Origin: Rhizobacter sp.
GTDB taxonomy: Bacteria > Pseudomonadota > Gammaproteobacteria > Burkholderiales > Burkholderiaceae
Reading direction: 5' to 3'
DNA length: 11,976 bases
NCBI GenBank assembly: GCA_014379885.1
Contig: JACMKW010000135.1
Span: 1 to 11,976, forward strand
Shown here: positions 1 through 11,976 of the stretch, piece after piece
How positions within the stretch are numbered: position 1 is the first letter of the stretch
Layout: every line of letters starts with the position of its first letter
Made by a program: the position numbers and the translations under genes
The notes under the pieces: generated by a model
Database searches by the model: none
The model's input: only the letters and a program-made list of their open reading frames with translations
What the model was told of the DNA's origin: nothing

Positions 1-284
1 GAGAGGCCAAAACGGCATGGAGGCTCCAGTGGTGACGAGGAAGACGCTGTAGATGAGTGTCGCTGCCGGCCATTCAACCCTGCACGAGGCCTCGTCCTAA
101 GGCATATGAATGTAGATGCGGACTGCCACGCCTGCGGCAATGCACCGGAGTTGCAACGGTTGATGACCGAGTGAGCACGTGGCGGCTCGTCGGCGCAACC
201 GATGCAACCGCTCAACGAGAATGGCGCCGCACGCCGAGGTCTCAGGTCGGCACGCCGAAACACTCCCCCGAAAGGCTATGCGAC
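1..284. other. Leader region without a secure gene
   Basis: No gene is well supported here. The plus-strand reading frame of the zinc-ribbon gene stays open back to a GTG at 57, but that extension is Arg/Cys-rich, has no family-like motif and looks like non-coding sequence. On the minus strand an ATG at 18-16 is preceded by GGAG with 5-nt spacing and would begin M-P-F-W-P-L before running off the window. It could be the first codons of a divergent membrane-protein gene, but six codons are too few to call. Confidence 0.4.
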
Positions 285-290
285 GTGACC

Positions 291-1022
291 ATGCGTTCTG
301 AACCGCAGCTGGCGGGCTCCCAGCCCGTGGCGCACCACAATCGCTTCACCTTGCAGGGCAGCCCCAGTTCCCTGAGTTTCCCGCCACTCTGCCCCAACTG
401 CGGCGGCGCGGCAGCGGAGACGATCGAGTACGCCAAGGTTTTCCGCCGGGTGCACACCGACGCACCCACTGAACACATCGTGACAAGCGTTCGCGTGCCT
501 ATGTGCAGCCAATGCGCTGCCCTACATCACCAGCAGGCCGCCCCTCCAAGCCAGCTGTCCAAGGTGTTGTCGAGCTTTGCCACAGGCGACATGCTGGGGG
601 CGGTGCTGCCGGCGATCGCGGCCGTGTTCGTGGCCTATCTGGCGCTGAAGGAGTTGGTCAAGGGTCGCTTTGACGCGTTCGGCATCTTCGTGCTGGTCGC
701 AGCATTCTTTGCGGTGATTGCCTGGTCGCAACGCCGGCACGTCTGGCAGGCAACGCACCACCTTCGGGTCGCCCCCGCCACGGACATGACCCAGGCTTTC
801 GACTTCAGTGACGACATCGCATCGGCCTTTGAATCGCCTCGGTTCATCTGCTCCATGCGAGACGAGCGTTTTGCGAACGCTTTCAGCGCGCTCAACAGCG
901 AGCTCAAATACCGTGCGGACAGTGCCAGCGCTGTCGCGGATCGAAAGCAGGCCAATCGAACCATGTGGCTTGTAGGCGCCGTGGTCGTGGCGCTCGCATT
1001 GCTGGGCTACCTGGTCGGTTGA
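291..1022 (+). CDS. Zinc-ribbon membrane protein of unknown function
   Basis: I do not recognise a named family. Counting from the ATG at 291 the protein has 243 residues. Near its N-terminus are two CxxC pairs, CPNC at 34-37 and CSQC at 72-75, which look like a treble-clef or zinc-ribbon metal site split by a 34-residue insert. Three hydrophobic segments follow at about 102-122, 129-146 and 225-242, the last ending one residue before the C-terminus. The soluble stretch between segments two and three (about 150-222) contains FDFSDD and a later Phe/Arg-rich patch, suggesting a small cytoplasmic domain. The start is uncertain: GTG at 285 has AAAGG 9 nt upstream, and ATG at 291 lies two codons later; the frame is open back to 57, but that part does not look like protein. 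The gene converges on the ABC permease gene with only 5 nt between the stops, and no terminator hairpin is visible there. Confidence 0.65.
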   Translation: MRSEPQLAGSQPVAHHNRFTLQGSPSSLSFPPLCPNCGGAAAETIEYAKVFRRVHTDAPTEHIVTSVRVPMCSQCAALHHQQAAPPSQLSKVLSSFATGDMLGAVLPAIAAVFVAYLALKELVKGRFDAFGIFVLVAAFFAVIAWSQRRHVWQATHHLRVAPATDMTQAFDFSDDIASAFESPRFICSMRDERFANAFSALNSELKYRADSASAVADRKQANRTMWLVGAVVVALALLGYLVG

Positions 1023-1027
1023 ACCTG

Positions 1028-1870
1028 TCACCTCATCAGGACGCGCCTGATGGTGTAGCTCAACGCATCGACCATCGCCACCAGCAGCAGCATCGCGCCC
1101 AACACCGTCGCGGTCTTGGGCATCTGGAACAGGCTCATGTGGAACGACAGCAGCTGGCCCAAACCACCTGCACCCACCACCCCCAGGATGGCGGCGGCGC
1201 GAATGTTGTTCTCCCAGCGGTACAGCGAGTACGAGATCAGCTGCGGCAAAATCTGCGGCAGCGTCGCGTAGAAGAACACACCAACAGAGCCCACGCCTTG
1301 CGTGCGCAGCGCGAGCAACGCGCCCTGGGGCGAGTTCTCGATCGCTTCGGCGAACAGGCGGCCGAGCACACCGGTCGTGTGAAGCGCCAATGCCAGCGTC
1401 CCCGCAAGCGGGCCGAGGCCTGCCGAAATGAGCAGCAGCGTGGCCCACACCAGCTCGGGCACGGCACGCAGCGCGTTCAAGAGCAGCCGCGTCGGGGCAC
1501 GTGCGCGGGCGGGGTCACCCTCGTGGGTGCGGCTCGCGGGCAACGCCAACATCAAGCCGAAGAGAGCGGCCAGCAGCGTGCCAAGCGCCGACATCGCGAT
1601 CGTTTCAAGCGACGCTGCGCCCACCTTGCGCAAGAACGCAGCAGACAAGTCGGGCGGGAAAAACTCGCCGGCGAAGCGCCCCATGCTCCTGAGCGCCTCC
1701 CCCGACAGGAACGCACGCCACTGCAGATCGAGGCTCCAGAAACTTACACCGACCAGCACCACAAGACCGAGGCTGAGCCAGCATGCCTTGCAGCGCGCAT
1801 CAAACAGCGGTGGCGGCAGCCGATACGGCGGGCTGGTGGCAAGCGGCGTCGGGGTCGGGGTCGGCTTCAC
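1028..1870 (-). CDS. phnE: PhnE-type ABC transporter permease, second copy
   Basis: This is an inner-membrane permease subunit of a phosphonate-type (PhnCDE-like) ABC importer, 280 residues long. After a short Pro-rich N-terminus it has a first membrane span (CWLSLGLVVLVGVSFW), then the binding-protein-dependent transport core of several further helices. Near the C-terminus is the PhnE-type coupling region, with LPQILPQLISYSLYRWENN followed by VGAGGLGQLL. I chose the GTG at 1870 because its GTGA overlaps the stop of the preceding permease; upstream residues in this frame are Arg-rich shadow sequence. The N-terminus reads PTPTPTP and is encoded by a short hexanucleotide repeat (GTCGGG on the plus strand, 1848-1865), which could slip. 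It is the last gene of the senA-phnC-phnE-phnE operon. PhnE pairs of this kind normally form a heterodimer. The substrate cannot be read from the sequence; the operon suggests selenium rather than phosphonate. Confidence 0.88.
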   Translation of the reverse strand: MKPTPTPTPLATSPPYRLPPPLFDARCKACWLSLGLVVLVGVSFWSLDLQWRAFLSGEALRSMGRFAGEFFPPDLSAAFLRKVGAASLETIAMSALGTLLAALFGLMLALPASRTHEGDPARARAPTRLLLNALRAVPELVWATLLLISAGLGPLAGTLALALHTTGVLGRLFAEAIENSPQGALLALRTQGVGSVGVFFYATLPQILPQLISYSLYRWENNIRAAAILGVVGAGGLGQLLSFHMSLFQMPKTATVLGAMLLLVAMVDALSYTIRRVLMR

Positions 1871-2691
1871 GCGAGCACCCGCCTGAGCGCAGCGCTGATG
1901 CGGTCGGCGAAGGCCACCAGCGCGACGAACACCAGCAGCATGGTGGCCACCTCGCCGCCTGCGAACATCTTGGTGGAGTTGTCCAGCTGCTGGCCAAGCC
2001 CTCCGGCGCCCACAAAACCGAGCACGACCGACGACCGGATCGCGCACTCCCAGCGGTACACGGTGTACGACGTGAGTTCGGCCGCGTTCTGTGGCAGCAG
2101 GCCATAGGCGAACGCCTGCAGCCGGCCACCGCCATTGGCCAGCAGGCAGCGCGTGGCGTGGGCGTCACCGCTCTCCAGAATGTCGCTGTACACCTTGCCG
2201 AGCATGCCGCCATACGTGAGGGCAATGGCCAGCACGCCGGCCGTGGGGCCGAGGCCGACGACACGCACGAACACCAGCGCCCACACCAGTTCGGGAACAC
2301 TGCGCAACAGCACCAGCGTCCAACGCAACGCCTGCCGCAGCACCGCGGGCGCGGCCCCCATGCGCCCGGACAGGGCCGAGACCGACAGCACCCGCGTCGA
2401 CAGCAGCGTGGCCGGCACGGCAATCACCAATGCCAGCGTGATGCCGGCCGTGGCAATGGCCACCGTGCGCCAGGTTTCGCGGGCAAGCAGCCACAGGAAG
2501 TCGGCGCTCATGGCGGGCGGCACGAAAGCCGACAGAAAACGAAGCGTCGGCCCGCGGCTTTCAGCGCCGAACAGCGTCCAGGGCCGGAACTCCGTGACAA
2601 CCAACAGGGGCCAGAGCAGCACCAGGCCTGCCCCGATCCAGAACACGCGCCCGAGCCAGGCCGGGTCACGCTGAGGCGGCACGGTCGTCAT
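1867..2691 (-). CDS. phnE: PhnE-type ABC transporter permease, first copy
   Basis: This 274-residue inner-membrane permease is a paralogue of the gene downstream. It begins with a membrane span (about 17-33, GAGLVLLWPLLVV), has a periplasmic segment with the PPAMSADFLW sequence seen in many PhnE proteins (compare PPDLSAAFLR in its partner), and then the multi-helix transport core. The cytoplasmic coupling loop is LLPQNAAELTSYTVYRWE followed by VGAGGLGQQL. The ATG at 2691 overlaps the stop of the ATPase gene as ATGA, and its own stop overlaps the GTG of the second permease, so translation is probably coupled on both sides. The two permeases have diverged clearly outside the coupling loop, so they look like an old heterodimer pair rather than a recent duplication. 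Substrate: not determinable from sequence. Confidence 0.88.
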   Translation of the reverse strand: MTTVPPQRDPAWLGRVFWIGAGLVLLWPLLVVTEFRPWTLFGAESRGPTLRFLSAFVPPAMSADFLWLLARETWRTVAIATAGITLALVIAVPATLLSTRVLSVSALSGRMGAAPAVLRQALRWTLVLLRSVPELVWALVFVRVVGLGPTAGVLAIALTYGGMLGKVYSDILESGDAHATRCLLANGGGRLQAFAYGLLPQNAAELTSYTVYRWECAIRSSVVLGFVGAGGLGQQLDNSTKMFAGGEVATMLLVFVALVAFADRISAALRRVLA

Positions 2692-3512
2692 CGGCAGATC
2701 ATCACCACGGGCTGGGGCGAGGCAGCGGGCGCGCTGGGGCCGGGCACTCCATGAAGCTCGTCTTCGTGCTGGGCATAGAGCCGCAGCAGGTGATCGCGGC
2801 TGACCTGGGGCGTGGGCAGGTCAAAAGCGACGGTGCCCTGGCGCAAGCCCACGATGCGGTCGAAGTGCGCCAGCGCGGTGTCGACCTGGTGCATGGTGGT
2901 GAGCAGCGTGACGCCGCGCTCGCGCGCGATCGCGATCAGCGCGGCGATGGCCTGCTCAGAACGCGTCGGGTCGAGCGCCGACAGCGGCTCGTCGATCAGC
3001 CACAGCGTTGCCGGCGCAAGCAGCGCGCGCGCGAGGCCAACACGTTGGCGCTCACCGCCAGACAAGCGGTCAACACGCGCGTACAGCTTATCGGCCAGAT
3101 CGAAACGCTCCAGCGCCTGATGCGCGCCTGCGATATCGACCGGGTAGAAAAGCGAACGCAGGCTGGTGGCCAGGCTCCACGCCGGCAGCCGACCGGCCAA
3201 CACGGCGGTCACCACACGTTGGCGCGGTGGCAGCGGCGGGGTCTGCGGCGCCATGAACAAGCGGCCCCGCTGGCGTTGCAACGCGCGCACCGACAGCGCC
3301 CAGGGGTCAACCCCGTCCTGGGTCACGTTGCCTTGCAATGGCTTGAGCGCAGCGGCGGCCACCTGCAGCAGCGTCGTCTTTCCGGCGCCGGATGGCCCGA
3401 TCACAGCGAGTTGTTCCCCCGCTCGCAGGCTCAGGCTCACTCCGTTCAGAGCCATCGCGCCACGCGCGGCCGCGGGGTGGCGTGCGTGCACGGTCTGCAG
3501 ATCGATCTTCAT
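2688..3512 (-). CDS. phnC: PhnC-type ABC transporter ATP-binding protein
   Basis: This is the cytoplasmic ATPase that would power the two permeases; 274 residues. Walker A is GPSGAGKT at 39-46, the Q-loop glutamine is Q90, the signature motif is LSGGERQ at 150-156, Walker B is LWLIDEP at 170-176, and the switch histidine is H208 in TTMHQVD. All catalytic positions are intact. The segment VLAGRLPAWSLATSLRSLF after the Q-loop is characteristic of PhnC as opposed to general import ATPases. A Pro/Ala-rich tail of about 25 residues follows the domain. The ATG at 3512 sits in an ATGA overlap with the stop of senA. That ties the transporter to the selenoneine enzyme, so a selenium oxyanion or another pathway input is a better guess for the substrate than phosphonate. 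No binding-protein gene accompanies it in the window. Confidence 0.9.
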   Translation of the reverse strand: MKIDLQTVHARHPAAARGAMALNGVSLSLRAGEQLAVIGPSGAGKTTLLQVAAAALKPLQGNVTQDGVDPWALSVRALQRQRGRLFMAPQTPPLPPRQRVVTAVLAGRLPAWSLATSLRSLFYPVDIAGAHQALERFDLADKLYARVDRLSGGERQRVGLARALLAPATLWLIDEPLSALDPTRSEQAIAALIAIARERGVTLLTTMHQVDTALAHFDRIVGLRQGTVAFDLPTPQVSRDHLLRLYAQHEDELHGVPGPSAPAASPQPVVMICR

Positions 3513-4771
3513 GGCGCGCAGGTCCTGAAACCTGCGAACACATCAGCGCGGTCCGCAGGGAAAAAATTCCGATAACAAGGGTGCTTCAAGCGCGGCGAGG
3601 TGGCGAACGACGCACCCCGCAGCACCGGGCGGCCATCGAACCAGGGCTGCGAGTAATCACGATAGGGGTGCGGCTCGAAGCCGGCGTAGGGCATGAAGGG
3701 GCTGGCCGTCCATTCCCACACCTCGCCCCAGTCGAACGGCTCGCCGTCTGTGGCGGCGCGCAGCGCGGCCGTCTCCCACTCGGCTTCGCTGGGCAGGCGG
3801 CGGCCCGCCCAGCGGCACCAGGCTTCGGCCTCGTGAGCGCTGAGGTGCAGTGCTGGCGCCTCTGGGTCAAGCGGCACCCAAACGCCAAAACGATGCTGTT
3901 GCCAGTCTCCTTCGGCACGACGCAGGTGCAGCGGGCAGCTGCGAGCCTGGCGCGTGCGCCAGGCCCAGCCGGCGGGTGTCCAGAGACTTTCTGAGGCATG
4001 GCCGCCGGACTCGATGAACGGCAGGTACCGGGCCCACGACACCGGCGCCCGGTCGATCGCAAAATCAACCAGATCGACCGGGTGAGCGCGCAGCTCGTTG
4101 TCAAAAGCAAACCCGGCGCCATCGATGCCAAGGACGTAGCTGCCACCGGGAACCTGCATCTCGCCATGTGCGCTCGACGACTTCGGCGCCCTGCCGTTCA
4201 TCGCCGGCCCGAGGTCGATGCCCAGCTGCTGCGCCATGAAATGCCACGCTTCACGGTGCATGTCTTCATGCATCAACACCAGGCGGAAGAAATAGAGCTC
4301 ATCGTCACGGCCCCCACTTTGAGCCAGCAGTGCGAGCGTGGCCTGGCGCACTTGGACGAGGTAGTCACACGTTGCCTGCACGCCAGGAAGCTCAAGCAAC
4401 CAGCGCTGCTTGTGCGGCACCTTGGAAGAGTCGTACAGCCCATCGGCGCCGCTGAGCACCGACGCCGAGCGGGGCACGGTGGGGTCGCACGCGGTGCCGC
4501 GCAGCCGCTGCGGGTTGCGTGCCAACCAGAATTCTTCGAACCAGCCGATGTGGCCGAGTTCCCACAGCGGCAGGTTCAACACCGGATCGAACGCGACCTG
4601 CAAACCGCCGGGCCCCAACGCGCGTTCAAACCCGTCGAACAGCGTCAGCAGCTGGTCCCGCCCAGCGCGAAGCGCCTGGTCAAGCGTGGCGGGGCCGGCA
4701 TGGCGAATGTCACCCGACACAGCGGCATTGCGCCTTGCTTCCTGTTCCACTGACGGTATAACCGAACCCAT
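3509..4771 (-). CDS. senA: Selenoneine synthase SenA (EgtB-like)
   Basis: This is an EgtB-family non-heme iron enzyme. In the known Variovorax pathway SenA couples hercynine (trimethylhistidine) to the selenosugar made by SenB and yields selenoneine in the cytoplasm. The 420-residue protein has an N-terminal DinB-like half with the expected iron ligands: H74 in ELGHIGWFEEFW, and H168 and H172 in LMHEDMH. A C-terminal formylglycine-generating-enzyme/sulfatase-modifying-factor fold begins near GGSYVLGIDG (209) and holds LPSEAEWE, VWEWTASPF and the terminal AGFRTC. On its own it could be an EgtB acting in ergothioneine synthesis; adjacency to senB makes SenA the better call. Start: ATG at 4771 has a GGGGGAG stretch 4 nt upstream, but that lies inside senB. 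GTG at 4750 or 4720 would leave room for a promoter and keep every conserved residue. The gene overlaps the ABC ATPase by 4 bp. Confidence 0.88.
   Translation of the reverse strand: MGSVIPSVEQEARRNAAVSGDIRHAGPATLDQALRAGRDQLLTLFDGFERALGPGGLQVAFDPVLNLPLWELGHIGWFEEFWLARNPQRLRGTACDPTVPRSASVLSGADGLYDSSKVPHKQRWLLELPGVQATCDYLVQVRQATLALLAQSGGRDDELYFFRLVLMHEDMHREAWHFMAQQLGIDLGPAMNGRAPKSSSAHGEMQVPGGSYVLGIDGAGFAFDNELRAHPVDLVDFAIDRAPVSWARYLPFIESGGHASESLWTPAGWAWRTRQARSCPLHLRRAEGDWQQHRFGVWVPLDPEAPALHLSAHEAEAWCRWAGRRLPSEAEWETAALRAATDGEPFDWGEVWEWTASPFMPYAGFEPHPYRDYSQPWFDGRPVLRGASFATSPRLKHPCYRNFFPADRADVFAGFRTCAP
4735..4762 (+). promoter_or_regulatory. Possible senB promoter, -10 near-symmetric
   Basis: TTGCTT (4735-4740) and TATAAC (4757-4762) with a 16-bp spacer resemble a sigma-70 promoter. 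Initiation about 7 nt after the -10 would fall at 4769-4770, on the senB ATG itself, giving a leaderless or nearly leaderless mRNA; no Shine-Dalgarno is visible before that ATG. The -10 lies in GGTATAACC, which reads GGTTATACC on the other strand and so might also serve senA. This is inferred from consensus matching only. Confidence 0.4.
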
Positions 4772-5738
4772 GTCTCTCCCCCGGATCTGCATCGTGACGC
4801 CTGCGCTGGCCAGCGCCAACAATGGCAACTGGCAAACCGCCAGGCGATGGTCGCAGATGTTGCGATCTCACCATCCAGTGGACTTGGTCGACCAATGGCA
4901 GGGCGAGCCGGCCGAGCTGCTGGTGGCCCTGCATGCCGGCCGCTCTGCCGCCTCCATCCAGCGGTGGACCCGCGAGCAACCCGGCCGTCCACTGGCGGTG
5001 GTGCTGACGGGCACCGACCTGTACCGCGACATCCACGTCGACGCGCAAGCAAAGCGATCACTCGAACTGGCCGATCGGCTCGTCGTGCTGCATGAACGCG
5101 CCATCGACGACCTGCCTGCGCAGTACCGCGCCAAGGCCATCGTGTGCTTCCAGTCCGCCACGGCCCGTTTGCCGCAGGCCAAGACGGCGCAGCACTTGCG
5201 GTGCGTGATGGTGGGGCATTTGCGCGAAGAGAAGGCGCCGCAGACCTACTTCGAGGCCGTGCGCCAGCTTGCGCACCGGCACGACATCTTGCTCGACCAC
5301 ATCGGCGACGCACTCGACCCCGCCCTGGGTGCCCAGGCGCAGGCCTTGCAGCAAGGCTGCCCGCAGTATCGATGGCTGGGCGCCCTGCCCCACGACACAG
5401 CGCGCGGCCGCATCCAGAGCGCGCATGTGCTGGTGCACACCAGTCGCATCGAAGGCGGTGCGCATGTGGTCATGGAAGCGGTTTGCAGCGGCACGCCGGT
5501 GCTGGCGACGCGCATCTCGGGCAACGTCGGCATGCTGGGCGCCGACTACGCAGGCTACTTCGAAGCGGGTGACGCCGAGGGGCTTGCCCGGCTCATCGAA
5601 CGTTGCCGCGACCATCCGGCGATGCTGCAACAGCTGGGCAAACAGTGCGCGGCCCGGGCGCCGATTTTCAAGCCCGAACGCGAGCGCGCAACGCTGCGTT
5701 CACTGGTCAATGACCTGCTGGAAAAACCCCGATATTGA
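4770..5738 (+). CDS. senB: Selenosugar synthase SenB (GT-B glycosyltransferase)
   Basis: In the known pathway SenB forms the carbon-selenium bond of a selenosugar from selenophosphate and a UDP-sugar; SenA uses the product. The protein has 322 residues, a normal length for this group. Its N-terminus is the first strand and loop of a GT-B fold, IVTPALASANNGNWQTARRW at 8-27. VLTGTDLYRDI at 78-88 and the diverged linker follow. The C-terminal Rossmann domain starts near RCVMVGHLREEK (144-155). The GT4-type nucleotide-sugar site is E228-x7-E236 in RIEGGAHVVMEA, followed by GTPVLATRISGN. The start must be the ATG at 4770, because the conserved motif begins seven residues later and no upstream in-frame start fits. 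There is no Shine-Dalgarno. The gene diverges from senA; the two ATGs interlock in one CATG. A plain GT4 sugar transferase is the alternative, made unlikely by the neighbour. Confidence 0.88.
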   Translation: MSLPRICIVTPALASANNGNWQTARRWSQMLRSHHPVDLVDQWQGEPAELLVALHAGRSAASIQRWTREQPGRPLAVVLTGTDLYRDIHVDAQAKRSLELADRLVVLHERAIDDLPAQYRAKAIVCFQSATARLPQAKTAQHLRCVMVGHLREEKAPQTYFEAVRQLAHRHDILLDHIGDALDPALGAQAQALQQGCPQYRWLGALPHDTARGRIQSAHVLVHTSRIEGGAHVVMEAVCSGTPVLATRISGNVGMLGADYAGYFEAGDAEGLARLIERCRDHPAMLQQLGKQCAARAPIFKPERERATLRSLVNDLLEKPRY

Positions 5739-5807
5739 GCGAGATCCTGAGGAACACCAACCGCATGATGATGCCCAGGGATTTGTCGGTCGGCATTAAA
5801 AACTCGC

Positions 5808-6311
5808 CTACATCGCCCTGGAGATCATGACAGCGTCATACGGTGGAACGAGGGACTCGCGAGCCAACTTGCTGGCGATCTGAAACACGAGGGGCAGGTT
5901 CAGTTGGTCTGGATCGCGCGGCACCACGTCATAGTGGCAAAGCGTGCCCATCAAGAGCCCTTCCGCATCCATGATCGGTATGCCGGTGTAGCACTGGTAC
6001 ACCTCGCGCGCCGGATGGGCCGTCAGCCTCTCGTCAAGCAACGAAGCCGCTGTGGTGAACATGCCTTTGCTGTCTTTCACGTAGCAGCAATAAGTGGCCG
6101 ACTCCGGCATCTCCGGAGAAGTCATCTGACCGGGATGTTCACGGTCATAGAAGACCACGGCTTTGACCATGCCGTCATTGAATCTGAAGATACCGATGAA
6201 CCTGTAGTCGGTGTAGTCCAACAGGTGGGCAAGGCTCGCCCGCAGACCGTAGTCTTTCAGCATTGACTCGAAGCGGCGGAACGCCACTTCGGTGGGCAGG
6301 CGACCGAGCAT
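5808..6311 (-). CDS. GAF-domain protein
   Basis: This is a stand-alone GAF-like sensor domain of 167 residues. Visible GAF features are the strand YRFIGIFRFNDGMVKAVVFY (36-55), the pair ATYCCYV at 72-78, and the C-terminal core YTGIPIMDAEGLLMGTLCHY (108-127). No kinase, cyclase, HTH or other output domain is fused to it. The cysteines C75, C76 and C125 could bind a ligand or respond to redox state, but this is speculation. Start: ATG at 6311 has GGAG 10 nt upstream and begins directly before the conserved part. The frame is open to 6587, with ATG at 6473 as an alternative, but the added residues are Arg/Ser/Pro-rich and unlike the domain. The gene converges on senB, with about 70 nt of unremarkable sequence between the stops. 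I see no partner gene nearby that would tell what it senses. Confidence 0.75.
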   Translation of the reverse strand: MLGRLPTEVAFRRFESMLKDYGLRASLAHLLDYTDYRFIGIFRFNDGMVKAVVFYDREHPGQMTSPEMPESATYCCYVKDSKGMFTTAASLLDERLTAHPAREVYQCYTGIPIMDAEGLLMGTLCHYDVVPRDPDQLNLPLVFQIASKLARESLVPPYDAVMISRAM

Positions 6312-7051
6312 GTTGAAAAGACTCCGAATCTTGTTCCGGGCATCAGCATGACCAGCCGACGAGGGGAAATGAATGACTAAAGCTACCAGCTTGGCCGCCA
6401 CTCGCTTCGGCGTCTGTGCGTTCCCGTACTTAGACCGTTCCTTGTTGCTTGGCGAACGGAAAGGTCGAGTCATCGCCGTGAACTCGCTCGGCCCGGAACG
6501 CCGCCACCGCAGTCTGCGGGTGGGCGGCGTGCTGTGAGACCCGCAGATGAATTGATCCACATCATCAAATCCGAAGAAAGTCATCACGAGTGGCGAGAAG
6601 AGCCCTCTCGGCGTGGCATGCGAGGAGCATCATCTCGCTGCAACGCGGCACGTCTCAGCGGCGTAGTTCTGTCGAACCCCGGTACCACCAGCGTCATTTC
6701 GCTCGGCTTCAACGAGCAGGGAATCGTTCATGAAATCGAAAGTCATCGCTTCACCGCTGTGGGCAACCGCGTCGTTTGGTGACTCACCCGACACGTCACC
6801 GATGGAACTCTCGGCGCTCGGCGAGCACCTGGATGGCTGCAGGCGATCGCAAGGCCGATTGTTTACCCTTCGCTGTCATGTGGACGCCGTTAACGGGTTC
6901 CTCGTTCCGCGCGTCGTGACAGTCGTGACCGTGGTTGCGATCTTGATCGGCGTCATTTCTCATTTCCCTTGACGCCTGGCTGCGTCCGATCACGGCACTG
7001 TCTCCCGCGCCGTTACCCTGGCTGCAACTCCTAGCCCGCCTCGCAGGTCAT
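6312..7051. other. Gene-poor interval of about 740 bases
   Basis: I see no convincing gene. The best candidate is a plus-strand frame 6730-6972 (80 residues): its ATG follows AGGGA (6718-6722) with 7-nt spacing, its start MKSKVIASPLWATAS resembles a signal peptide, and the last 20 residues are hydrophobic, but the middle shows no family pattern. A GC-rich interrupted hairpin lies at 6501-6526 (CCGCCACCGC against GCGGGTGGGCGG) with no T-run after it, so it is not a clear rho-independent terminator. The interval may hold the promoter of the GAF gene and degraded coding sequence. Confidence 0.5.
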
Positions 7052-7465
7052 TCATTCCCCCAGTTCATCGAGGATCGGGCAGTCCGGCCGGTGGTCGCCA
7101 TGGCAACAATCGGCCAGTCGCTCCAGCGTGCGCTTCATGGCGGCCAACTCTTGCATGCGGCGGTCCAGATCAGCGACATGGCTGAGCGCAATGCGCTTCA
7201 CGTCCAGGCTGGCGCGGCGCCGGTTCTGCCACAGCTTGAGCAGCTCGGCGATTTCCGCCATGCTGAAGCCCAGTTCACGCGAGCGGCGGATGAAGCGCAG
7301 GGTGTGCACCTCGGCTTCACCGTAGAGACGGTAGCCGGCATCGGTGCGCTTGACCTTGGGCAGCAGCCCCAAGGATTCATAGTGCCGCACCATCTTCGCG
7401 GAGACCCCCGACTGAGCCGCGGCCTCGCCGATGTTGAACACGATCTGGGTTGCCTGGTCATTCAT
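7052..7465 (-). CDS. cueR: Cu(+)-responsive MerR-family regulator CueR
   Basis: This DNA-binding activator senses cytoplasmic Cu(+) and switches on copper-export genes by untwisting promoters with a long spacer. It has 137 residues. The winged helix-turn-helix is at the N-terminus ([20 protein letters not shown], 11-30, then the GYRLY wing at 44-48), followed by the long dimerisation helix and a metal-binding loop. The loop reads [11 protein letters not shown] at 120-130. C121 and C129 are eight residues apart, as are C112 and C120 of Escherichia coli CueR, and this marks a sensor of monovalent coinage metals rather than of Hg or Zn. The ATG at 7465 overlaps the copA stop as ATGA, so cueR is probably translated from the copA mRNA and so boosts its own synthesis when copper rises. 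No terminator hairpin is evident after its stop. Confidence 0.92.
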
Positions 7466-9906
7466 TGCTCGTTTCCTTTCCAGCGGCTCAGCATCAGCGC
7501 ATTGGTGACCACGCTCACGCTGCTGAATGCCATCGCGGCACCGGCAATCACCGGGTTCAGCAGCCCGAATGCTGCCAACGGGATGCCGACGACGTTGTAG
7601 ACAAATGCCCAGAACAGGTTCTGGCGGATCTTGCGGTAGGTGCGACGCGAAATGTCGATCGCGTCCGCCACCAGCGCCGGGTTGCCGCGCATCAGGGTGA
7701 TGCCGGCCGCGTGCATGGCCACATCGGTGCCGGTGGACATCGCAATGCCCACGTCGGCAGCGGCCAAGGCCGGAGCGTCGTTGATGCCGTCGCCGACCAT
7801 GGCGACCCGCTCGCCGGCACCCAACGATTGTTTGAGCTGCGCCACGATCGCCGCCTTGTCCTCGGGCAAGACCTCGGCGCGAATCTCGTCCAGTTCGAGC
7901 TCACGGCCAACCGCCTCCGCGCTGCCCCGGTTGTCGCCGGTGAGCATCACCGTCCTGATGCCTTGTGACCGCAGCTGACGCACTGCGTGGGCAGCCGAGG
8001 CCTTCAGCGTATCGCCGAAACCGAAGAGACCGAGCAGCCGCGGTTGCGCAGTCAGGTCGGCCAGCCAGGACACCGTGCGCCCCTGGTCTTGAAGCGCCTG
8101 GGCAAGCGCAGCCATTGGCCGCCAGTCGACCTTCAACTCGTCCATGTAGCGCGTGCTGCCCAAGTGCAGCTCACGCCCACCGACAGTCGCCACCATGCCG
8201 CGGCCGGCCACCGCCCGCACTTGGGCAGCGACCGGAACCCTCACCTGCTCGCGCTGCGCCGCAGCCGTCAGGGCCTTGGCCAAAGGGTGCTCGCTGTTGG
8301 CCTGGATGGCCGCGGCATCGGCCAGCAGCGTGGCGCGGTTCCCCTGTGCAGGTTCGCAGGCCACCAGTTCGGGCTTGCCTTCGGTCAGCGTGCCGGTCTT
8401 GTCGAAGGCCACAACCTTGACGGCATGGGCGGTTTCCAGGGCTTCGGCGTCCTTGATCAGGATGCCATGGCGTGCTGCCACGCCGGTGCCGGCCATGACC
8501 GCGGTCGGCGTTGCCAGGCCCAGGGCACACGGGCAGGCAATCACCAGCACAGCGACGGCGTTGAGCAGGGCCTGTTCCCAGTTGGCGGTGGCCATGCCCC
8601 AGCCCACCAGCGTCAGCAAGGCAATGCCGATGACCACCGGAACGAAAACCGCACTGACCTTGTCGACCAGGCGCTGGATCGGCGCCTTCTTGGCCTGGGC
8701 AGACTCAACCAGGCGCACGATGCGAGACAAGGTGGACTCAGAGCCGATGGCACGGGTGCGCACCAGCAGCAGGCCTTCGGCGTTGACCGATCCCCCGGTG
8801 ACTGCGTCGCCGAGCTGCTTGACCACGGGCAGGCTTTCGCCAGTGATCAGCGATTCGTCGACCTGGCTGGCGCCTTCGACGACCTCGCCGTCGACCGCGA
8901 TGCGTTCACCAGGTCGCACCACCACCACGTCACCCAGCCGCACCTGGGCGATGGGCACGTCGCTGTCCACACCCTCGCGGCGAACTCGCGCCACATCGGG
9001 GCGCAGCGCATTCAGGGCGCGGATCGCTTCGGTGGTCTGCCGCTTGGCGCGCGTTTCCAGCCACTTGCCCAGCAGCACCAGCGTGATGACCACCGCCGAG
9101 GCCTCGAAGTACAGGTGGCCGCTGTGGGCAGCGTGGGCGCCGTTGACCACCAGCAGGTACAAGCTCAGGCCGTAACCTGCGCTGGTGCCGAGGGCGACCA
9201 GCAGGTCCATGTTGCCTGCGCCGGCCTTCACCGCCTTCCAGGCCGCGCGGTAAAAACGCGCTCCCAGCCAAAACTGCACCGGCGTCGCCAGCGCGAGCTG
9301 CAGCCAACCGTTGACCATCCAGTCGCGGTTGAACAGCATGCCGAACATCGGCAAGACCAGCGGCGCCGACAGCACAGCGGCCACAGCGATCGGCCACCAG
9401 TCTGGCAGGCTGCGCGCGCTCGATCGAGCGGCCGCTGGCACTGCCGCCGCTTCTGGACGCACCTGGTAGCCCGCTCCTTCCACCGCAGCCGCCAGCGTCG
9501 CGGCGTTGACATCGCGGCTCACCACCTTGACGAGTGCGCGTTCGGTGGCCAGGTTCACTTCGGCGGACGCGACGCCGGGCACCTTCATCAGCGCCTTTTC
9601 GACCCGCGACACACAACTGGCGCATGTCATGCCCTCGATCTGCAGCCCGATCGACTGTTCCGGCACGGCATAGCCAGCCTTGGACACGGCTTCGCGCAGC
9701 CGACCCAGATCGACCGACCCGTCGTGTTCGACGAAGGCCGCTTCGGTGGCAAGGTTGACAGTGGCCGACGACACCCCCGGCACGGCCTTGAGCGAGCGCT
9801 CCACGCGCGACACGCAGGAGGCGCAGGTCATGCCCCCGACGGGGAAGGACCAGTGGGCCGGGGTAGATGCCGACGCAGAAGAAAGGGGAACTGACAGCGT
9901 GTTCAT
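7462..9906 (-). CDS. copA: Cu(+)-exporting P1B-type ATPase CopA
   Basis: This inner-membrane pump expels Cu(+) from cytoplasm to periplasm using ATP. It has 814 residues. Two N-terminal heavy-metal-binding domains each carry [11 protein letters not shown], with cysteines C28/C31 and C95/C98. The membrane part starts near residue 168. The actuator motif TGES is at 355-358 and the transmembrane copper site CPC at 458-460. The phosphorylated aspartate is D502 in [11 protein letters not shown], the P1B-specific SEHPLA is at 538-543, and GDGINDAP is at 705-712. The last helices contain YNVVGIP (770-776) and MAFSS (792-796), which supply the other Cu(+) ligands in class 1B-1 pumps, so Cu(+)/Ag(+) is the expected cargo. 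All catalytic residues are present. The start at 9906 is 7 residues before an Ala/Ser-rich leader and has only a weak GAG upstream. A CueR-type promoter lies about 40-65 nt before it, and cueR follows with a 4-bp overlap. Confidence 0.95.
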
Positions 9907-9943
9907 GGCGATCTCGATGACTGCTCAACCGCAGGATGCAGCG

Positions 9944-9974
9944 ATCTTCAACCTTTCCATGATGGTAGGGTCAA
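9944..9974 (-). promoter_or_regulatory. CueR-type promoter and operator of copA
   Basis: On the minus strand the -35 TTGACC (9974-9969) is followed after 19 bp by GAAGAT (9949-9944) as a weak -10. A 19-bp spacer is the hallmark of MerR/CueR-activated promoters. Within and beside the spacer is the dyad ACCCTACCAT-C-ATGGAAAGGT (9951-9971), with 8 of 10 positions symmetric, close to known CueR boxes. It lies directly upstream of copA-cueR, and transcription would start about 30 nt before the copA ATG. Binding by this CueR is inferred. Confidence 0.85.
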
Positions 9975-9990
9975 GCTTTTTCAAAGAACC

Positions 9991-10059
9991 ACCTGATTTA
10001 GCGTCACGCCTCAGCTGCACCCCAGTCTCCGTTCGGGCTGAGGAATGTCACTAAACAGC
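9991..10059. repeat. Short unit of compound repeat
   Basis: This 69-bp unit begins ACCTGATT and ends AAACAGC. Its core TCAGCTGCACCC, then TCCGTTCGGGCTGAG, recurs in the adjoining longer unit at 10060-10200. It lacks the internal palindromic part of that unit, so it looks like a deletion derivative. An AAGAACCA direct repeat lies outside the pair at 9984-9991 and 10201-10208. Confidence 0.65.
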
Positions 10060-10200
10060 ACCTGATTGGTGATCTTCGTCAGCTGCACCCAATTCCGTTC
10101 GGGCTGAGCTTGTCGAAGCCGGCGCAGTGCACGGCGCACCCTTCGACAGGCTCAGGGCGAACGGAGGGTGGCGGAGGTATGTCGCTAATCAGGAAACAGC
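10060..10200. repeat. Long unit of compound repeat with REP-like palindrome
   Basis: This 141-bp unit shares its beginning (ACCTGATT), its core and its end (AAACAGC) with the preceding 69-bp unit. It carries an imperfect inverted repeat, left arm 10095-10120 and right arm 10139-10164, with 21 of 26 positions pairing around an 18-nt loop. The right arm contains CTTCGACAGGCTCAGGGCGA, a sequence I know from dispersed intergenic repeats in many proteobacteria. It separates the end of the periplasmic copper operon from the copA promoter and may act as a transcription barrier. Confidence 0.7.
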
Positions 10201-10221
10201 AAGAACCATCACCACCGCAGG

Positions 10222-10617
10222 TCAGGACACGCGACGCAAGCGCAGCGTCAGGGGCGACGCCGCCGGAGACTTGTTGCTCCACATCCAGCAATAGTCCTGC
10301 TCGGTTTTCACCTGAAGCTCGCCTTCCAGCTTGACCTGCGCATCCTTGTTGGCCGAGAAGCGAACCTCCTTGCCCTCGTGGTAGTGAACGTTGAAGTTCA
10401 ACGGTGTGCCGGCTTCGAATTGCCACTCGACCTTCGCCGGTGGCGTGAGCTTGCCGCAGACCTCAACGAACTTGCCGGGCGCCACATCCAGGCTGCGGAT
10501 GAACTGCTGCTGCGCATCCCATTCGAGCTCGATCACCTGGGCATGGGCGATCGACGCGAAGGCGGCGGCCGTGGCGGCCGTCGCGACAAGCAGCAATTTG
10601 GAAGCGATGGGTTTCAT
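10222..10617 (-). CDS. Periplasmic protein of the copper operon, unknown function
   Basis: I do not recognise a named family. The product has 131 residues with a clear Sec signal peptide (MKPIASKLLL start, Ala-rich core, likely cut after AHA at residue 26), so the mature form is about 105 residues in the periplasm. It appears rich in beta strands and ends in a basic LTLRLRRV strand. Two cysteines, C54 in EVCGKL and C110 in DYCWMW, could form a disulfide. H78 and H80 in NVHYHEG, with the Met of WMW, are possible copper ligands. Overall layout recalls small extracellular beta-sandwich (GOLD-like) domains, but this is weak. It is the last gene of the MCO-cupredoxin-CusF series, 63 nt after the CusF-like gene, with GGAA 5 nt before the ATG. 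Its position argues for a role in periplasmic copper binding or in assisting its neighbours. Confidence 0.75.
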   Translation of the reverse strand: MKPIASKLLLVATAATAAAFASIAHAQVIELEWDAQQQFIRSLDVAPGKFVEVCGKLTPPAKVEWQFEAGTPLNFNVHYHEGKEVRFSANKDAQVKLEGELQVKTEQDYCWMWSNKSPAASPLTLRLRRVS

Positions 10618-10680
10618 GTGTTTCCGTGATCGAGAGCAGCCGTACCAGAGCAGATCGACACCCCAGCACGACGCTCGGTG

Positions 10681-11022
10681 TTACTTGGCTGCGTCCAGGG
10701 TGGTGACGGTGAACGCACCGTTGATCTTCTCAGCGGTGAAGCGCACCTTGTCACCCGCCTTGACTTTCTCGAGCATGGCGGGGTCCTTGACCTGGAACAC
10801 CATCGTCATGCCCGGCATGCCGAGGTTCTTGATCTCGGCGTGCTTCAAGGTGATCTTCTTGGCGTCCATATCGACCTTGCGCACCTCGCCGTCGGTCGCG
10901 GCGGGCGCGCTGTCGGTCGCTTGCATTTCCTTGGGCTGCGCGGCCGGCTGGTGGGTCGTCGCCCAGCTGGCGCATGTGGTCATCAGCAGAGAGAGCGAAA
11001 GAACTGTGGTTGGTTTCTTCAT
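10681..11022 (-). CDS. CusF-like periplasmic copper-binding protein
   Basis: This is a small metallochaperone-like protein of 113 residues. An N-terminal signal sequence spans about residues 1-21. A Thr/Ala/Pro-rich linker leads to a CusF-type OB-fold beta barrel from about residue 44 (DGEVRKVDMDAKKITLKH) to the end. Aligned by eye to E. coli CusF, the Cu(+)/Ag(+) ligands are H61, M72 and M74. The tryptophan that caps the metal in E. coli (W44) is replaced by M69 in NLGMPGMTM, giving a possible fourth sulfur ligand. In the Cus system CusF passes periplasmic copper to the CusCBA efflux pump; no such pump is in the window, so here the protein may act as a buffer or hand metal to the oxidase or cupredoxin. 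AGGAG lies 6 nt before the ATG. The LMTTC stretch is a poor lipobox, so a lipoprotein is possible but not favoured. Confidence 0.88.
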   Translation of the reverse strand: MKKPTTVLSLSLLMTTCASWATTHQPAAQPKEMQATDSAPAATDGEVRKVDMDAKKITLKHAEIKNLGMPGMTMVFQVKDPAMLEKVKAGDKVRFTAEKINGAFTVTTLDAAK

Positions 11023-11079
11023 GGGGTACTCCTGTGAGTGAACTCGTGGTGAATCGAAAATTCAGTGGCGTTGCTCGGA

Positions 11080-11664
11080 TCAGTGCTTGTGGTCGACGTG
11101 ACCATCTGTCTTGGCCTTGGCTGCACCTTTGGTGCCCGCGACCGTCACCGCGCCTTTCATGCCGGCGTCGTAGTGACCCGGTTGCAGGCAAGCAAAATCG
11201 ACCTTGCCCGATTGGGTGAACTGCCAGATCACCTCGCCGGCCTTGCCCGGGGCCACCGTCACCATGTTGGGATCGTCGTGTTCCATCTCCGGGAACTTCT
11301 TCATCACTTCGTAGTGCTCCTCCAATTCCTTCTCGGTACCCAGCACGAACTCGTGCTTGAGCTGGCCGGAGTTCTTGACGACGAAGCGAATGGTTTCGCC
11401 TTGCTTCACGGCAACGCTGGCCGGGTTGAAGCGCATCGTGTCGGTCATGTCGACGGTCACGGTGCGGCTGACCTTGTTGGGTTTGCCGGCCACGCCGATG
11501 GCGTCACCATGCCCGTGTGCATGGCCATCGGCCGCCTTGGTGGCGGCCTTGGTGAGGGCATTGCCCGCAGGGGCTGAGGCGCCGTGTTTTTCCTTGCCGT
11601 CCGCAAAAGCAAGACTCGAGGAAAGCAGCAGGCCGATCGCCAGAGTTCTGTGAAAAGTGTTCAT
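11080..11664 (-). CDS. Periplasmic cupredoxin (plastocyanin/azurin-like)
   Basis: This is a type 1 copper protein of 194 residues with a signal peptide (MNTFHRTLAIGLLLSSSLAF, likely cut after AFA near 21). The mature N-terminus is a flexible His-rich tract, DGHAHGHGD at 46-54. The cupredoxin beta sandwich runs from about 66 to 176. The predicted type 1 copper ligands are H104 in LKHEFV, C159 and H164 in ACLQPGH, and M169 in AGM. The C-terminal tail DGHVDHKH is again His-rich and could bind additional copper. Such proteins accompany multicopper oxidases in betaproteobacterial copper-resistance loci and may donate or accept electrons or sequester copper. I chose the ATG at 11664 because AAAGG lies 7 nt before it and the signal peptide begins there. 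It follows the oxidase stop by 10 nt, so the ribosome-binding site lies inside the oxidase gene end and co-transcription is nearly certain. Confidence 0.9.
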   Translation of the reverse strand: MNTFHRTLAIGLLLSSSLAFADGKEKHGASAPAGNALTKAATKAADGHAHGHGDAIGVAGKPNKVSRTVTVDMTDTMRFNPASVAVKQGETIRFVVKNSGQLKHEFVLGTEKELEEHYEVMKKFPEMEHDDPNMVTVAPGKAGEVIWQFTQSGKVDFACLQPGHYDAGMKGAVTVAGTKGAAKAKTDGHVDHKH

Positions 11665-11674
11665 GGCTTGCCTT

Positions 11675-11976
11675 TCAATGGCCGGAATGGCCCTTGGGTT
11701 TGCGGATCTGGACTTCGATGTCTTTGGCAGGCTTGCCGCGTGACGGCATGGAGCTGCCACCCTCGGAGGCAAACCGTGCGGGCTCGCTCAACGCACCGGC
11801 CCACTCGAACGCGTTGGTGCCCGTGGGGTGTTTGAACCAGCCGGGGTCGCTGTAGTCGCCGCGCTTCTGGCCGGCTCGAACCTTGAGCACACTGAACATG
11901 CCGCCCATCTCGACCGACCCGAACGGGCCCACGCCACCCATCATCTTGGCAGTGTTGTCGGGCAAGGGCATCTCCA
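11675..11976 (-). CDS. Multicopper oxidase, C-terminal part (runs off window)
   Basis: Only the last roughly 100 residues are inside the window; the gene continues past 11976. The visible part begins E-M-P-L-P-D-N-T-A-K and continues with MMGGVGPFGSVEMGGMFSVL. It then has GDYSDPGWFKHPTGTNAFEW, which matches the end of the copper-oxidase group found in Burkholderiales copper loci, downstream of the type 1 copper motif. The His/Cys cluster that would bind the type 1 and trinuclear copper sites must lie outside the window, so activity cannot be judged. In that family the enzyme acts in the periplasm and is thought to oxidise Cu(+) to the less toxic Cu(2+). The C-terminal tail is Pro/Lys-rich and ends KGHSGH. 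An internal ATG at 11971 is not the gene start. It is the first visible gene of a minus-strand operon with the cupredoxin and CusF-like genes. Confidence 0.8.
   Translation of the reverse strand, partial: EMPLPDNTAKMMGGVGPFGSVEMGGMFSVLKVRAGQKRGDYSDPGWFKHPTGTNAFEWAGALSEPARFASEGGSSMPSRGKPAKDIEVQIRKPKGHSGH

Follow-up and report, generated by a model that had tools for sequence, protein, structure and literature searches.

Where does a bacterium that makes selenoneine, a selenium antioxidant, obtain its selenium, and could a transporter encoded beside its selenoneine genes provide it? The question is raised by a stretch of 11,976 nucleotides from Rhizobacter sp. (Burkholderiales; assembly GCA_014379885.1, contig JACMKW010000135.1, positions 1 to 11,976 of the forward strand), hereafter the window, in which senA (selenoneine synthase) and the divergent senB (selenosugar synthase) are accompanied by phnC, phnE1 and phnE2, three transporter genes for an ATPase and two permeases. 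A first-pass annotation, made from the sequence alone, described senA-phnC-phnE-phnE as joined by three 4-bp overlaps, and proposed that the transporter supplies selenium, or hercynine, or moves the product, with a selenium oxyanion as the best fit. The open reading frames (ORFs) and the overlaps (GTGA at 1867-1870, ATGA at 2688-2691 and ATGA at 3509-3512) were confirmed in the sequence. The available parts of reviews from 2022 and 2026 (including PMC9312934) state that prokaryotes have no known high-affinity selenium transporter, and the part of a study on Methanococcus maripaludis available to us reports five other transporters tested as selenium carriers, with no clear one among them (PMC11097638). 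Here we compare the locus with its relatives across several hundred genomes, and propose that PhnC-PhnE-PhnE is probably dedicated to importing a selenium oxyanion, selenite being the likeliest substrate and selenate a less likely one, and working with a substrate-binding protein (SBP) that is probably supplied in trans.

The transporter and its partner binding protein

For a phosphonate importer, all subunits would be expected to exceed the cut-offs of TIGR02315 (PhnC), TIGR01097 (PhnE) and TIGR03431 (PhnD), and in the window PhnE2 is the only subunit that does (Table 1). Because PhnC and PhnE1 fall below their cut-offs, the earlier label 'PhnCEE-type' holds as a description of family resemblance and does not extend to a phosphonate assignment. 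In the related locus L003, the SBP scores 408 bits against TIGR04553 (cut-off 250) versus 168 bits against the PhnD profile (cut-off 261), and the SBPs of three relatives reach 356-408 bits to TIGR04553, all below the PhnD cut-off. TIGR04553, of the kind hypoth_equivalog, is named as a 'putative selenate' binding protein; a PhnD-like family of this name had been mentioned in the first-pass annotation, and it does exist.

A FastTree phylogeny of 112 PhnC+PhnE1 pairs (46 of 158 stretches, in which PhnC and PhnE1 were not found at 45% identity, were left out, and the rows L041 and L059 carry a 'sen' label given manually on the strength of a senA that is partial or stands alone) placed the window's PhnC and PhnE1 as sister to L003 with support of 100, within modules that bear an SBP. 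The conserved order of these modules is the TIGR04553 SBP first, followed by PhnC-PhnE-PhnE. In a family survey of 399 genomes, 89 matched the window PhnE1 at 1e-115, and 27 of the 30 best PhnE1 loci had the SBP directly upstream of phnC, the others being G531, where it lies about 0.9 kb further up, and G580 and G379, which have none there. We conclude that the TIGR04553 family is the partner SBP of the window's transporter clade.

Selenium genes beside the module

Gene contexts were compared in an order survey of 200 genomes and a phylum survey of 398, each with one genome per species; many are metagenome-assembled genomes, so that absences are uncertain, and the Fisher and binomial values ignore relatedness. 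In the order survey the SBP was over its cut-off in 45 genomes, SenA in 46, and SelD was found in 145. The selD gene was present in 41 of the 45 SBP genomes versus 104 of the 155 without SBP (Fisher 0.001), SenA occurred in 25 of the 45, and eight of the 45 had selD and no SenA match at 1e-60. The phylum survey yielded the SBP in 34 genomes, giving 73 different SBP loci for the two surveys together (45 + 34). A PhnC match lay within 400 bp after the SBP in 42/45 loci of the order survey, 33/34 of the phylum survey and 69/73 of the union, with PhnC identities from about 31% up; the same rule found PhnC in 2/8 control loci, whose PhnD-like SBPs lie below the cut-off.

A selenium gene (selD, selU, selA, selB or senB) was encoded in 22 of the 73 SBP stretches, where about 2% would be expected per stretch (binomial 3e-19 if loci are independent). 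None was found in the eight control loci, which are too few for significance by themselves, so that the chance rate of about 2% is the stronger comparison. This association is stable within genera and varied between them. The genus of G001 carries the module in 10 of 11 genomes, always beside selD and selU and with no sen gene in the stretch, while the genus of L003 and G002 carries it in nine of ten, always beside senA with the SBP gene in between; selD was seen in eight of these nine loci, and the ninth contig ends early. More distant modules, with PhnC 31-37% identical, adjoin selD-senB in four phylum loci. According to lineage the neighbours are senA/senB/selD, selD/selU or selA, and on the tree of 112 modules the sen contexts require 10 changes and the selU contexts five. 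Given these varied neighbours, and two genomes (G958 and G972) in which the module adjoins selD-selU and both SenA-like and EgtD matches are missing, selenium appears as the common denominator. The selenium supply role and the oxyanion substrate put forward in the first-pass annotation are supported by this context, together with the TIGR04553 partnership.

Two observations were made alongside these surveys. In the genus of G001 (G001, G220-G224 and G226-G229) EgtD and SenA-like matches of 417-507 bits are present, and the module is located by selD-selU, away from the SenA match. In several genomes of the order survey (e.g. G016, G022 and G056) selD contains one in-frame TGA, which suggests that SelD is itself a selenoprotein there.

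Neighbourhoods of senA in relatives

One scan of genome contigs with the window SenA gave 65 loci, of which 49 encode both SenA and SenB (tblastn). PhnC at 45% identity or more was found in 32 of these 49, and 28 of the 32 have a PhnD-like SBP as well; rarity of PhnCE genes beside senA, which had been named as an outcome that would speak against a functional link, is therefore not what the genomes hold. The common order in Burkholderiales is selD-senB divergent from senA, often with egtD on the other strand, followed by SBP-phnC-phnE-phnE. Among 24 loci with at least 7 kb upstream and at least 9 kb downstream of senA, the transporter is present in 16 and absent in eight. Three of the latter (L002, L011 and L048) belong to genomes that carry the module elsewhere; no TIGR04553 match was found in the genome of L050, in a search that covered these four genomes and not those of L006, L007, L026 and L037. 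In L102 and L103 (genomes G110 and G176), senB-selD lie near an SBP-PhnCEE module and the SenA match on the same contig is about 50 kb away.

Loss of the binding protein gene and the senA-phnC join

No match to the TIGR04553 SBP was found in the window (tblastn, 1e-8), and selD and egtD, which most relatives carry at the locus, also gave no match there. The window thus has no selD/senC adjoining senB, as a complete sen cluster would, and as L001 and L003 have. In both of these loci senA and phnC are separated by the SBP gene, which starts just past senA; the L001 contig stops within phnC, and its genome, G216, shows this arrangement as well. Their SenA is 16 residues longer than that of the window, where the senA stop is made by the ATGA of phnC, and this longer tail could instead be a gain in L001 and L003. 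On the tree, the presence and absence of the SBP require three changes, in the window, in three Hydrogenophaga and in a clade of four modules (G580, G379 and G523). Because the SBP gene sits in between in L003 and L001 and the tree calls for these three changes, the direct senA-phnC join is most simply explained as derived, the intervening SBP gene having been lost. The first-pass annotation had placed the novelty of the locus in the direct operon fusion with senA, a view that we do not retain, as the join would be the product of a loss and the same SBP-less join occurs in Hydrogenophaga L027, L033, L034 and L035, plus L220 and L227. An 8-base repeat flanking the SBP segment of L003 was considered as a mediator of the deletion and given no weight, the window junction not lying exactly on the repeat.

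The SBP was searched for in six genomes from the two remaining SBP-less clades (G004, G005, G006, G580, G379 and G523), the genome of the seventh SBP-less relative, L033, lying outside this search; all six have an SBP-less module and encode a TIGR04553 SBP over the cut-off elsewhere. In G580 and G523 this distant SBP gene follows selA-selB downstream, in the same orientation, at a distance of about 1.1-1.2 kb, and G523 has two SBP-less modules, one by selD and one by senA-senB-selD, and a single SBP over the cut-off. No selenium genes were found near the distant SBP of the three Hydrogenophaga in the 15 kb fetched, nor near that of G379 in 14 kb. Judged from gene order, the SBP appears to have left its permease operon in at least two lineages, in two genomes standing beside selA-selB. 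By analogy with these two lineages, where the SBP presumably acts in trans, that of the window probably has its gene at another place in the genome and acts in trans too. Two further neighbours were noted: the module-less SBP of L086 and L087 (G005 and G006) adjoins a LysR-type regulator with a PBP_like domain, and that of L088 (G004) has a tungstate-type permease about 1 kb away.

Proposed pathway and its generality

Under the proposed mechanism, phnC would encode the ATPase, and each phnE a membrane subunit, of an importer for a small selenium oxyanion, which would be reduced to selenide inside the cell; the selenide would feed SelD, encoded elsewhere, for conversion to selenophosphate, which SenB would turn into a selenosugar and SenA would carry on to selenoneine. 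In the lineage of the window, loss of the TIGR04553 SBP gene between senA and phnC would have left the 4-bp overlap, and the transporter genes are for this reason now probably read on the senA transcript. A broader proposal, to which we give about an even chance, is that proteobacteria have here a dedicated importer of selenium for the synthesis of selenoneine, 2-selenouridine and selenocysteine alike, with a detachable and shared SBP that can serve a distant PhnCEE in trans.

The comparison names one four-gene candidate importer with gene partners in three selenium pathways, and the genomes in which SBP and permease stand apart make the question open to simple gene removals. If specific, the importer would be a handle for making selenoneine.

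Binding pocket and competing explanations

The available part of PMC10284923 describes residues that hold phosphate in PhnD1, including Y44, S124, T125, S126, H156, D203 and the capping Y204. These were mapped by alignment to 7s6g, with the offset read by hand, onto 136 SBP stretches scoring 100 bits or more, some of which share a genome. All mapped phosphate-binding residues are present in the L003 SBP. Y44, S124 and H156 are invariant across the 136, T125 and S126 are each kept in 135 and the capping Y204 in 134; position 203 holds D 97 times and N 38 times, and D11 and N174 are more variable (103/136 and 98/136). Directly after the capping tyrosine stands N or Q in 135/136 SBPs (N225 in L003), H in PhnD1 and P in 8/8 controls. 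Such a pocket suggests a small oxyanion as ligand.

Several observations weigh against the selenium importer. The same pocket residues recur in phosphate, phosphite and phosphonate SBPs generally and are largely common to the eight control SBPs, so the pocket alone cannot tell selenite from phosphate. No selenium gene lies in the stretch fetched at 51 of the 73 SBP loci, and selD was not seen in four of the 45 SBP genomes of the order survey. In that survey 21 of the 46 genomes with SenA over the cut-off have no SBP over the cut-off, and G011 has a sen cluster and no TIGR04553 match anywhere in the genome, from which it follows that the importer is not obligatory. In L002, which is one of the three closest SenA relatives and matches the window SenA as closely as L003 does (67%), the sen genes stand without a transporter, and the module is found elsewhere, beside selD-selU. 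The window, too, has no selD beside senB, and its locus may therefore be eroding. That the window transporter is a remnant, no longer working after loss of the SBP and the neighbouring selD, would be in keeping with the missing matches to SBP, selD and egtD; however, its three subunits are full length with their motifs present, the ratio of amino-acid-changing to synonymous substitution rates (dN/dS) against L003 is 0.11-0.15, a value that covers the whole divergence and not only the time since the loss, and two other clades retain SBP-less modules, with the SBP elsewhere. We regard a remnant as unlikely, while leaving it some weight.

An ordinary phosphate, phosphite or phosphonate importer, placed next to selenium genes by chance, would explain the resemblance of PhnC and PhnE, the one PhnE over the phosphonate cut-off, the SBP loci without a selenium gene, and the use of these pocket residues to bind phosphate in 7s6g, the closest SBP with a solved structure. 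It does not sit well with PhnC and PhnE1 below the phosphonate cut-offs, with an L003 SBP that fits TIGR04553 and not PhnD, or with modules placed time and again, across many lineages, by selD, selU, selA and sen genes, and we consider it rather improbable. Import of hercynine or of an organic selenium compound, or uptake of selenoneine itself, seems highly improbable. It draws on the position of egtD in many relatives, where it separates senA from the SBP gene (the window has no egtD), and on EgtD being over its cut-off in 15 of 17 tested genomes with selD-, selU- or selA-linked modules, a further point against the selenium oxyanion; those 15 also have a SenA or EgtB-like match, over the SenA cut-off in eight. 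With that count, the argument that selU-linked modules need no hercynine was dropped, and only G958 and G972 bear on it. These two genomes, in which neither EgtD nor a SenA-like protein was matched and the module stands by selD-selU, together with the conserved oxyanion loop and capping tyrosine, led us to reject hercynine import and selenoneine transport as the general role, both of which the first-pass annotation had entertained; the eight SBP genomes of the order survey with selD and no SenA match point the same way. A dedicated importer for a selenium oxyanion remains our preferred explanation.

Relation to known systems

The window shares with the TIGR04553 family the clade of its partner transporters, the sister locus L003 having SBP-PhnC-PhnE-PhnE after senA, and differs in the absence of the SBP gene. 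Like the sen cluster of Variovorax paradoxus (SenA, SenB and SenC/SelD), it encodes SenA and SenB over their cut-offs, but it has no selD/senC at the locus and its transporter is joined to senA. PhnCDE, PtxABC and PhnD1 importers have the same subunit architecture and SBP pocket residues, whereas the module lies under the phosphonate PhnC and PhnD cut-offs and stands in a selenium gene context. YedE, a proposed selenium-related transporter, presumably belongs to a different transporter class from PhnCEE. It was likewise proposed from gene neighbourhood, in the part of PMC9312934 available to us.

No link between a sen cluster and this transporter was found in the open-access literature, covered mostly at the level of titles and abstracts and without the founding Nature 2022 paper; no substrate experiment on a TIGR04553 transporter was found in the open-access literature searched, and none of the open-access records searched joins 'selenium', 'PhnD' and 'SelD'. 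One genome paper uses the annotation 'putative selenate ABC transporter' (ATP-binding cassette) and, in its available part, suggests selenite export (PMC13077682). We see the candidate dedicated selenium importer with a detachable SBP as a new form of a family that already has a provisional name.

Features of the window

Table 1. Features of the selenoneine and transporter locus in the window.
Feature	Positions	Strand	Remarks
phnE2, second permease of the TIGR04553-type module	1028..1870	-	GTG start; TIGR01097 249 bits (cut-off 217)
phnE1, first permease	1867..2691	-	TIGR01097 189 bits, under cut-off 217; 87% identity to L003
phnC, ATPase	2688..3512	-	TIGR02315 187 bits, under cut-off 266; 85% identity to L003
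ATGA junction senA/phnC	3509..3512	-	SBP gene occupies the corresponding place in L003 and L001
senA, selenoneine synthase	3509..4771	-	ATG at 4771; NF041186 515 bits (cut-off 420)
Back-to-back senA/senB start region	4745..4772	.	two ATGs overlapping in CATG
senB, selenosugar synthase	4770..5738	+	TIGR04348 457 bits (cut-off 300)

All five proteins (SenA, SenB, PhnC, PhnE1 and PhnE2) are free of internal stops, and PhnE2 is 83% identical to that of L003. Against L003, dN/dS is 0.20 for senB and 0.24 for senA, in addition to the transporter values given above; since synonymous change far exceeds amino-acid change, all five are taken as real genes. PhnC keeps its Walker A (39), LSGGE (150) and Walker B (172) motifs. 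SenA matches solved SenA (8k5i/8ryz) at E of about 1e-125 and has HxxxHxE at 168 (HEDMHRE), which we take to be the iron site, as in EgtB. SenB matches solved SenB (8k5u/8fbx) at E of 1e-108 to 1e-106 and keeps N20/T23, EGGAHV and the lysine of REEK, corresponding to the key residues (N20, T23, the catalytic lysine and EGGAHV) described in the available part of PMC10891094. A senA start further in, e.g. the GTG at 4720, is possible, as the family profile opens at residue 23. The block GTTATACCG at 4754-4762, in the senA/senB start region, is common to the window and L001-L003, and the region containing it is possibly a shared regulatory site. A promoter scan of 1000-5900 gave no consensus promoter, and no Rfam family reached its gathering score in the window.

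Outside the locus, a minus-strand ORF at 5808-6587 has no Pfam or NCBIfam match, and its C-terminal half appears GAF-like by eye. By the sen genes, at 7052-11976, lies a copper-resistance island with a CueR-type regulator, a CopA-type P-type ATPase, a CusF-like protein and a CopI-like cupredoxin, and at 10020-10170 the units GTTCGGGCTGAG and CTTCGACAGGCTCAG resemble, by eye, an inverted repeat of the REP (repetitive extragenic palindromic) type.

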